NCBI GenBank assembly: GCA_937944245.1 | Contig: CALDYY010000062.1 | Coordinates: 1-42,212, forward strand | Direction: 5' to 3' | DNA length: 42,212 nt | DNA from: an uncultured Saprospiraceae bacterium | GTDB lineage: Bacteria; Bacteroidota; Bacteroidia; Chitinophagales; Saprospiraceae | In this document: positions 7,944 through 12,998 of the stretch, piece by piece | Numbering within the stretch: the stretch's first letter is position 1 | How the letters are laid out: each line of letters opens with the position of its first letter | Notes under the pieces: model-generated | What the model saw: the letters and a program-made list of their open reading frames with translations, nothing else | What the model was told of the DNA's origin: nothing | Databases searched by the model: none | Translations under genes and position numbers: made by a program

Positions 7944-8000
7944 ACGTTTTCTAAATAAATGATGCTAAAGTTTTATTAGCTAAAAAACAGTTAATAAAAT

Positions 8001-8038
8001 ATTTTGCGTTGATAAAATATGACTTATCAACGCAAAAT
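8001..8038 (-). terminator. 15-bp perfect hairpin, terminator of the minus-strand lipoprotein gene
   Basis: ATTTTGCGTTGATAA (8001-8015) and TTATCAACGCAAAAT (8024-8038) pair perfectly with an 8-base loop. On the minus strand the stem is followed by ATTTTATTAAC, an imperfect T-rich tail. It lies 13 bases behind the stop of the minus-strand lipoprotein gene. Confidence 0.7.
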
Positions 8039-8051
8039 ACAGGTCAAGTAA

Positions 8052-10099: not shown

Positions 10100-11485
10100 T
10101 TAAATCATATCTTCTGGGCGCACCCATTCGTCGAATTGCTCGGCGGTAACTAATCCTAACTCAATAGCTGCTTGCTTTAATGTTTTATCCTCTGCATAAG
10201 CTTTCTTTGCAATAGAAGCGGCATTGTCGTAACCAATTTTTGTATTTAGTGCTGTTACTAACATCAAAGAATTGTTCAGTAGTTCTTTGATGCGGTTGTA
10301 GTTGGGTTGCAATCCTTCAATACAATTATCTGTGAAACTAGCACAGGCATCGCCAATTAATTGAGCTGACCAAAGAAAGTTATAAATAATGACAGGTTTA
10401 AAAACATTCAACTCGAAATGTCCACTCATACCACCGACGTTGATGGTAACATCATTACCGATTACCTGCGCCATTGCCATCGTTAGTGCTTCTGATTGCG
10501 TTGGGTTAACCTTGCCCGGCATAATGGAAGAGCCAGGTTCATTGGATGGAATAATGATTTCTCCGATTCCACTTCTGGGTCCAGAAGCCAGCATTCGGAT
10601 ATCATTACCAATCTTCATTAAACTACAAGCCACTGTTTTCAATGCGCCATGCGCTTCTACAAGAGCATCGTGTGTAGCAAGTGATTCAAATTTATTTTCT
10701 GCTGTAATAAAAGGTAGTCCTGTTAGTGCTGCAATTTTTTCTGCTACTTTTTCGGCATAGCCTTTAGGTGCGTTCAGCCCTGTACCTACTGCTGTTCCGC
10801 CCAAAGCCAACTCAGAAAGATGCGCTAAACTGTTTTTAATGGCTTTGATGCCATGTTCAATCTGCGACACGTAACCACTGAGTTCTTGCCCAACTGTTAC
10901 AGGAGTAGCATCCATGAAATGTGTTCGTCCAATTTTAACCACATTCATAAATTGCTGAGCTTTTTCGTTTAGTGCATTTCGTAACTTTTCTAAACTAGGA
11001 ATAGTTACCTCCACCAATTTCTTATAAGCAGCAACGTGCATCGCCGTTGGGAAAGTATCGTTGGAAGATTGTGATTTATTGACATCGTCATTAGGGTGGA
11101 GAAAACGTTTTCCGTCTGTTAAAGCACCACCTTTTAGTACATGACCTCTATTGGCAATCACCTCATTTACATTCATATTCGATTGTGTGCCAGAACCTGT
11201 TTGCCAAACGACCAATGGAAATTGTTCATCTAATTTACCAGCCAAAATCTCATCGCACACCAATGCGATTAAATCTGCTTTTTCAGCATCCAGTATGCCT
11301 AATGCTTCGTTAGTGCGTGCTGCCGCTTTTTTCAAAATGGCAAAAGCACGAATTACTTCAATAGGCATTTGCTGTCCTCCAATCTTGAAATTTTGAATAG
11401 AACGTTGTGTTTGTGCACCCCAATAAGCCTCCACTGGCACATCAATGTAACCTATGCTATCTTTTTCTTGGCGAAAATTTGTCAT
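10100..11485 (-). CDS. fumC: Class II fumarate hydratase
   Basis: 461 residues, the normal length. It catalyses reversible hydration of fumarate to malate in the TCA cycle, in the cytoplasm, as a homotetramer without an iron-sulfur cluster. Family signature [11 protein letters not shown] is near 317-327, the flexible loop carrying the catalytic Ser; also visible are [37 protein letters not shown] and [16 protein letters not shown]. The pattern favours fumarase over aspartase or argininosuccinate lyase. Monocistronic; the structured RNA candidate lies upstream on the same strand and ends 100 bases before the start codon. Confidence 0.97.
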
Positions 11486-11584
11486 TTGTCTTCTAAGTTT
11501 TACAGTGTAAAAAAGATGGCGAAAGATAGTTGATTTCAGGTATTCATTTGTGCATTCATTGCTAAAAAATAGAATGGGAGGGAT

Positions 11585-11621
11585 AAAAAAAGAGACTTCC
11601 GAATTTAGTCATGGAAGCCTC
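11585..11621 (-). terminator. Intrinsic terminator of the structured RNA
   Basis: Minus-strand stem GAGGCTTCC (11621-11613) / GGAAGTCTC (11600-11592), 12-base loop, followed by seven T (11591-11585). One pair is G:U on this strand and a mismatch on the other, so it acts on minus-strand transcripts. Confidence 0.8.
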
Positions 11622-11765
11622 CGATAGCTGTACTACCTTCTCACTCTAAACTCTTGTCCGACACAGAAAGCCCGTCGGCAGTTGTGCGAAATAAGTTTTG
11701 GATACGGCATACAGCCCACTGCTACGTAGGTGTCAACATTCCTCTTTTGGCTAAATGGGTTTAAC
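11585..11765 (-). ncRNA. Structured RNA candidate, 6S-like in size
   Basis: No ORF here. On the minus strand a nested fold is visible: a long helix GGCTGTATGCC (11716-11706) with GGTAGTACAGCT (11637-11626, one bulged G), an inner AAACT/AGTTT helix, an apical CCGAC/GTCGG hairpin (11678-11658), and a terminal intrinsic terminator. Pairs that are G:U on the minus strand would be A:C mismatches on the plus strand in both the long helix and the terminator, which fixes the strand. About 180 nt, a rod with internal loops, is the size and shape of 6S RNA; tmRNA, RNase P RNA and SRP RNA signatures are absent. The 5' end is estimated and the identity is not proven. Confidence 0.55.
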
Positions 11766-11896
11766 TTAAATAGTTTATTAAAAAAAGGATATTCCTCTGT
11801 TTTTCAGCGTTTTAAACTTATTTTAACATCTAAAAATCAATAAATGAAGTTCTTTAACTTCACGATAAAATTAGACTTTTTTTGATACGACGGAGT

Positions 11897-11984: not shown

Positions 11985-11992
11985 TATCTTTA
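11985..11992 (+). promoter_or_regulatory. Putative -7 promoter box of the Rpn nuclease gene
   Basis: TATCTTTA resembles the Bacteroidota TAnnTTTG -7 box and lies 19 bases before the ATG at 12012. No clear -33 TTTG box was found. Confidence 0.3.
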
Positions 11993-12011
11993 CTTTTATA
12001 AAAACTAATTT

Positions 12012-12998
12012 ATGAGTGGTTTTGAAGAAAGATATGTTAATCCATTCACTGATTTTGGGTTTAAAAAAATTTTCGGAGAAGAGCCTAATAAAGATTTATT
12101 GTTAGATTTTCTTAATGAATTGCTTAAAGAGCAAGAAGGAAATATTGTGTCGCTTACCTATCTTAAAAATGAACATCTTGGCAGCAGCAATATAGACCGT
12201 AAGGCTATCTTTGACTTGTATTGTGAAAATGAGCGTGGCGAAAAGTTTATTGTGGAGTTGCAAAAATCAAAACAGAATTTTTTTAAAGACAGAACCTTAT
12301 ATTATGCCACTTTCCCCATCAGAGAGCAAGTAAAAAGAGCAGACTGGGATTACGAATTGAAGGCAGTTTATACTGTGGCTATTCTTGATTTTGTATTTGA
12401 CGAAGATAAAGATAACAAGGGAAAATATCGTTATGATGTTAAATTGACAGACATAGAAACTTGCAAAGTATTTTATGATAAACTTACTTTTATCTATTTA
12501 GAAATGCCAAAATTTACCAAAGGGGTGGATGAGTTGGAAACTCGCTTTGAAAAGTGGCTTTATGTACTGCGTAACTTGAATCGCTTGGAAAGAGTCCCAG
12601 AAAAATTAAGGGAAAAAATATTTGAACGCTTATTTGAAGTAGCAGAGATAGCTAAATTTTCACCAAAAGAGTTGATGTCTTATGAGGATAGTTTAAAGTA
12701 TTACAGAGACTTGAAGAATGTCATAGACACAGCTAAGCAAGAGGGAATGATGAAAGGAATGGAAGAAGGCTTGCAACAAGGTTTGCAACAAGGTTTGCAA
12801 CAAGGCTTGGAGCGAGGTTTGGAACAGGGTATTAAAAAAGGAATGGAAGAAGGAGCGTTGAGCAAGGCTTATCAAGTGATAAAAAAAGGATACGAAAGAG
12901 GATTGTCGTTGGAGGTACTTTCTGAATTAACAGGGTTATCAAAAGATAAAATAGAGCAAATGCTCAAGGAAGATAAACCAGTGGATGACTCAATCTAA
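12012..12998 (+). CDS. Rpn family recombination-promoting nuclease / PD-(D/E)XK transposase-like protein
   Basis: 328 residues. The N-terminus is diagnostic: YVNPFTDFGFKKIFGEEPNKDLLLDFLNELL, then RKAIFDLYCENERGEKFIVELQKSKQNFFKDRTLYY, which holds the catalytic Asp, Glu and Gln-x-Lys of the PDDEXK_2 nuclease fold. The Rpn family (RpnA-E in E. coli) comprises DNA endonucleases linked to RecA-independent recombination and, in some reports, phage defence. A low-complexity stretch of GLQQ repeats (residues about 249-280) precedes a helical C-terminus. No inverted repeats suggest a mobile element around it. The next gene starts 11 bases after the stop. Confidence 0.92.
   Translation: MSGFEERYVNPFTDFGFKKIFGEEPNKDLLLDFLNELLKEQEGNIVSLTYLKNEHLGSSNIDRKAIFDLYCENERGEKFIVELQKSKQNFFKDRTLYYATFPIREQVKRADWDYELKAVYTVAILDFVFDEDKDNKGKYRYDVKLTDIETCKVFYDKLTFIYLEMPKFTKGVDELETRFEKWLYVLRNLNRLERVPEKLREKIFERLFEVAEIAKFSPKELMSYEDSLKYYRDLKNVIDTAKQEGMMKGMEEGLQQGLQQGLQQGLERGLEQGIKKGMEEGALSKAYQVIKKGYERGLSLEVLSELTGLSKDKIEQMLKEDKPVDDSI
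12756..12851 (+). repeat. 12-bp tandem repeat coding for GxxxGxxx/GLQQ units
   Basis: Eight consecutive 12-bp units in frame; the central three (12768-12803) are nearly identical copies of GGTTTGCAACAA. They encode GLQQ GLQQ GLQQ GLER GLEQ and flanking related units within the Rpn-type protein. Copy number can change in steps of four residues without frameshift. Confidence 0.8.

Follow-up and report, generated by a model that had tools for sequence, protein, structure and literature searches.

A putative stand-alone small RNA gene with an intrinsic terminator in the spacer upstream of fumC of an uncultured Saprospiraceae bacterium

The window analyzed here is the whole of a 42,212-nt stretch of DNA (contig CALDYY010000062.1 of assembly GCA_937944245.1) from an uncultured Saprospiraceae bacterium. 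In this window, a spacer of 526 bases separates fumC from a divergently oriented gene of the PDDEXK_2 family (Table 1). The closest fumC sequences among named records were mostly from Saprospiraceae MAGs. The spacer is uneven in composition, with a GC content of 49% between positions 11600 and 11730 and 27% in the rest. The earlier note on this DNA had seen no ORF in the stretch 11585-11765, and this agrees with our count: the frames of at least 20 aa overlapping it are 25-37 aa long and start with GTG or TTG, and no frame longer than 37 aa touches the element. A 28-aa minus-strand frame, used as a tblastn query against plasmids, gave no match at E <= 1.

Table 1 Features of the fumC/PDDEXK_2 spacer and its flanking genes (window coordinates).
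Feature	Position	Strand	Basis
fumC, class II fumarase; downstream neighbor, same strand as the RNA	10100..11485	-	Pfam PF00206 (Lyase_1) and PF10415 (FumaraseC_C)
Probable fumC -7 element TATCTTTC, one mismatch to TAnnTTTG	11521..11528	-	Motif match; ~57 nt downstream of the terminator
Predicted intrinsic terminator: stem of 9-10 bp, loop of 12 nt, T7 tract	11585..11622	-	Fold; z = -3.64
Imperfect rod-shaped hairpin, 89 nt	11627..11715	-	RNAfold and base-pair probabilities; z = -2.34 for 11621-11715
5' part, loosely structured apart from a small hairpin at 11729-11716	11716..11765	-	Fold; z = -0.55 for 11715-11770
Best-matching promoter-like site, TTG-N17-TAAGTTTA, differing from TAnnTTTG at one position	11813..11840	-	Motif match; weak, could be chance
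PDDEXK_2 gene ('PD-(D/E)XK nuclease family transposase'), divergent neighbor	12012..12998	+	Pfam

A nested helix, an apical hairpin and a terminator had been proposed for the minus strand of this spacer, and refolding of that strand gave the same parts at the same places, confirming the structured element at 11585-11765 as real. The minimum free energy of 11585-11730 is -47.6 kcal/mol. The rod consists of 30 pairs, from 11715:11627 to 11677:11672, of which 28 have a pairing probability of at least 0.85. From its base upward, it comprises a closing helix (GCUGUAUGCC/GGUAGUACAGC) with one bulge, a short 3-bp step, a middle helix (AAACUU/GAGUUU), an upper helix (UUCGCACA/UGUGUCGGA) with one bulge and an apical GCC/GGC stem with a loop of 4 nt. 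The terminator stem pairs 11622-11613 with 11600-11591 over 10 bp, counting an outer G:U pair, and is followed by a T7 tract at 11591-11585, in line with the true terminator of a 9-bp stem and seven T described before. A terminator scan with a loop limit of 8 made no call at 11585-11622, where the loop has 12 nt. Six G:U pairs occur in the minus-strand fold, five of them within the rod (11708:11635, 11693:11653 and 11689:11658) and the terminator (11622:11591 and 11618:11595); these five are A:C on the plus strand, so that, as had been argued, the strand can be read from the pairs themselves.

The stability of the element was compared with that of dinucleotide shuffles (300 per segment). Folding is strand-specific: for 11585-11715, none of the 300 shuffles was as stable as the minus strand (z = -3.68), while 40 were as stable as the plus strand (z = -1.22). 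Much of this signal comes from the terminator, as the segment 11585-11625 reached z = -3.64 on its own (1/300). The rod at 11621-11715 was matched by 5 of 300 shuffles, and a trimmed version, 11625-11712, by 55 (z = -0.88). The terminator is thus clear and the support for the rod moderate. Extending the segment to 11730 gave z = -2.59 (3/300), and longer stretches that include the 5' part gave weaker scores, between -1.4 and -2.0 (z = -1.99 with 9/300 for 11585-11765 and, in a separate run over 11580-11770, z = -1.44 with 14/200 shuffles). When 44 noncoding segments of 131 nt from the window, each with a T-run at its end, were scored with 60 shuffles apiece, the element ranked 6th (z = -3.18), and its fold is therefore good but not exceptional. 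The top of this ranking (z = -7.2) was a segment containing a very strong hairpin at 7999-8040 of the minus strand, in the spacer of two minus-strand genes, with an 18-bp stem whose outermost and innermost pairs are G:U and a loop of 6 nt.

The element is single-copy in its own genome, where other matches do not exceed 23 nt. BLAST found no match at E <= 0.01 in any of three congeners (G001-G003), which are 73-90% complete and distant, with fumC genes 80-81% identical. With two candidates scored per genome, 7 of 395 other genomes of the order had matches, of only 21-30 nt, which were judged by eye and taken as chance, and none of 394 other genomes drawn from the phylum had a match at E <= 0.001; it should be noted that the two draws overlap and that both are samples of larger groups. 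Phages and plasmids gave no BLAST match at E <= 0.1. Across 195 loci, BLAST and nhmmer returned the known short matches and a single 64-nt match with 69% identity (L060). We also used two single-sequence covariance models, R1 (rod and terminator) and R2 (rod only), which have a limited reach and had no positive control here. In 199 genomes of the family, R1 recovered the element and, beyond it, five weak matches (E 0.06-0.97); the 64-nt match of L060 is also a weak R1 match. In 39 relatives, including the three congeners, no R2 match reached E <= 1, and in the window R2 matched the element only. A weak R1 match at 1227-1323 of the window (plus strand) aligns mainly over a terminator-like hairpin, whose stem AGGCUUC/GAAGCCU resembles that of the element's terminator, and a similar GAGACUUC/GAAGUCUC hairpin was seen in another locus (L019) from a short BLAST match. 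The lineage is thinly sampled, as the closest fumC found is 83% identical (80% among the named loci kept), and the absence of the element beyond its species is thus unsurprising. The earlier note had proposed to look for conservation in relatives, and none was found as far as the searches reached, the congeners being distant and partly incomplete; its suggestion of a new RNA family gained no second member in the genomes searched.

The position of the element raises the question of its relation to fumC. In the available text of two studies, TAnnTTTG is given as the -7 element of Bacteroidota (PMC7366714, PMC9723704). Of 49 relatives (29 + 3 genome loci plus 17 taken from the 80 named ones), 38 have an exact copy in the 120 nt preceding fumC, as compared with 5% in mononucleotide shuffles. 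With the near-consensus match listed in Table 1, fumC in the window probably carries a separate promoter downstream of the RNA's terminator, so that its expression need not depend on read-through from the RNA. For the RNA itself, two promoter-like sites of the kind listed are present between 11730 and 12011 of the minus strand, at least two being found in 43 of 500 shuffles; started from the best of them, the RNA would be roughly 220 nt long.

It could be argued that the element belongs to fumC as its 5' leader and controls read-through as a riboswitch or a terminator-based attenuator, as it lies on the same strand and its terminator ends 100 nt upstream of the start codon. Indeed, with the 3' arm of the terminator withheld, transcripts starting at 11765 and 11806 showed upstream pairing of its 5' arm, with probabilities of up to 0.69 and up to 0.50, respectively. 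However, this value is at most 0.07 for a start at 11730, the alternative pairing is weak (4 + 3 + 1 bp), and the finished terminator displaces it, its probability being near 1 once the 3' arm is made. In addition to the likely -7 element downstream, the comparison with 112 other fumC loci speaks against this idea: R1 gave no match at E <= 5 in 80 named loci and, in 32 loci of family members, only two weak overlapping matches on the 3' side of one fumC (L027; E 0.02 and 0.05). A leader or attenuator is thus unlikely. Even less probable, in our view, is a DNA-level hairpin belonging to a mobile element, be it an integron attC-like site, a MITE or a remnant linked to the PDDEXK_2 gene. The GC island and the adjoining gene, which has four copies in the genome (12012-12998 and one each on contigs C17, C29 and C72 of G000), would fit such an origin, but the element itself is single-copy. 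The nearest other copy of the gene is 77% identical over 754 bases, and the similarity to all three begins at 11991-12026, about the start codon, leaving the RNA outside; upstream of it, they share only short chance matches. Sites of the attC type carry paired RYYYAAC and GTTRRRY boxes, and between 11560 and 11800 a single self-complementary GTTTAAC (11759-11765) was found, with no partner box. Folding is also strand-specific, unlike that of a perfect DNA palindrome. A gapped pattern, CGCACAAC-N-TGTCGGACA, was considered as an attC-like or dispersed Bacteroidota repeat and rejected, as it occurred in 2 of the 395 order genomes and its reversed control in 7; it was also present in 54 viral stretches, none of which matched the element by BLAST at E <= 1.

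The earlier note had proposed 6S RNA by exclusion, an assignment that the following results do not uphold. The recommended scan with the Rfam 6S model was run and RF00013 had no match; at the gathering cut-off, no Rfam family, RF00013 and RF01685 included, matched anywhere in the window, nor did any at E <= 0.5 in a permissive search. Between 11300 and 12000, no 6S match was seen at E <= 5. Two other families in this interval, ctRNA_p42d (on the terminator, E 1.9) and MH_s25 (on the other strand, E 4.6), were taken as chance. ARAGORN predicted no tmRNA or tRNA in the window, which, with the Rfam result, bears out the absence of a tmRNA signature noted before. A 6S RNA is defined by a large central bubble between its closing and apical stems. 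The largest internal loops of the element measure 3 x 4 nt in the minimum free energy fold, the ends of the transcript are not paired in an end-to-end stem, and neither of the RF01685 blocks, CUCAAC and GGAGU, is present. Moreover, nothing convincing was found in the congeners, the 39 relatives or the 198 other family genomes, and since conservation is expected of a housekeeping RNA, 6S is unsupported. A length of roughly 140-220 nt and the rod shape would agree with a 6S RNA that has diverged in this lineage, whose 6S still has to be assigned: 40 genomes, most of them from this family or order, had no RF00013 match at E <= 1 (against matches in 5 of the 14 control genomes, in 4 of them over the cut-off) and no RF01685 match over the cut-off, with weak RF01685 matches at E <= 1 in four, the element's own genome among them. 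The RF01685 search lacked a positive control, as none of the 14 control genomes gave a match over its cut-off. The only weak RF01685 match in the element's own genome lies on another contig (26.2 bits) and was absent from a later scan at E <= 0.5. A better candidate comes from another genome of the family (G017), at 1501-1635 on the minus strand of locus L011 (G017:C206:47066-47200). It scores 35.1 bits with RF01685 (gathering cut-off, 85; E = 0.0065 per genome, 0.027 against all of Rfam) and retains the 5' CUCAAC and 3' GGAGU blocks; it sits between two longer ORFs, with a 62-aa TTG frame overlapping on the other strand, and folds slightly better than shuffles (z = -1.28). This stretch is a probable divergent 6S RNA, judged from its sequence. 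Searched with a model built from it, the window gave no match at E <= 5, and this stretch appears unrelated to the element, for which a 6S identity is extremely improbable. These results expose a gap, as neither Rfam 6S model passes its cut-off in any of the 40 genomes searched, which represent this family and related ones, and the sub-threshold match suggests that a divergent form exists. In the open-access literature, we found no paper joining Saprospiraceae and 6S RNA.

A stronger competitor holds that only the terminator is functional and insulates fumC from minus-strand read-through, the rod being a chance fold or decaying, perhaps acquired, GC-rich sequence. It draws on the share of the signal carried by the terminator, the modest score of the rod, the failure to find a homolog of the rod and the five other T-run segments of the window that fold relatively better. 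Against this stand the orientation of the upstream neighbor, which is divergent, so that any transcript stopped here must start in the spacer or run antisense to that gene, and the GC island and strand asymmetry, which reach across the rod. We regard an insulating terminator as possible though doubtful, and give slightly better than even chances to a stand-alone intergenic sRNA gene, specific to the species or to a narrow lineage, probably of the Saprospiraceae. The element lies in a spacer, has no long ORF and ends in a predicted intrinsic terminator, as intergenic sRNAs do. The sRNA is supported by strand-specific stability that ends exactly at the T7 tract, by a GC island with no ORF above 37 aa and no Rfam family, and by the likely separate -7 element of fumC. 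Against it count the weak promoter match, the rod that without its terminator only moderately beats shuffles, the 6th place of the fold among the 44 segments, the lower scores of longer stretches, and the lack of a homolog in our searches, and hence of covariation or conservation that would back a function.

The promoter of such an sRNA would lie in the AT-rich part of the spacer and drive transcription on the minus strand. Transcription might start near 11806, for an RNA of ~220 nt, or later, for one of 140-180 nt. The RNA would fold into the rod and the terminator hairpin, the latter ending the transcript and protecting its 3' end, and would be released with its 3' end ~57 nt short of the promoter element of fumC. 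It would most likely act in trans, its unpaired 5' part or its loops base-pairing with mRNAs, as is thought for other Bacteroidota intergenic sRNAs. That it is instead the founding member of an undescribed class of structured RNAs in a thinly sampled Saprospiraceae lineage, regulating in trans and perhaps tied to central metabolism beside fumC, seems very unlikely. We found no open-access paper joining Saprospiraceae, sRNA and transcription start sites; if transcribed, the element would be one more lineage-specific sRNA in this family. Taken as a candidate, it is a real sequence feature, ordinary in kind and narrow in distribution, most likely an ordinary lineage-specific sRNA and not 6S.

Compared with known systems, the element resembles 6S RNA (RF00013) in approximate length and rod-like overall shape but differs in lacking a model match, a central bubble, paired ends and detected conservation. 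Like 6S-Flavo (RF01685), it would be a Bacteroidota small RNA of comparable size; however, that model has no match in the window, and its two sequence blocks are absent. The closest parallels are GibS of Bacteroides thetaiotaomicron and the Rfp RNAs of Flavobacterium psychrophilum, which are likewise intergenic, without a long ORF and with a predicted fold. GibS is described, in the available text, with a presumed intrinsic terminator (PMC7366714), as predicted for the element. In F. psychrophilum, independent transcripts have a median length of 176 bp, and 45 of them are not antisense, 18 of these with a strong predicted structure (PMC9723704). The element is likened by description to these RNAs, with which it shares its setting in a spacer, its lack of a long ORF and its predicted structure.
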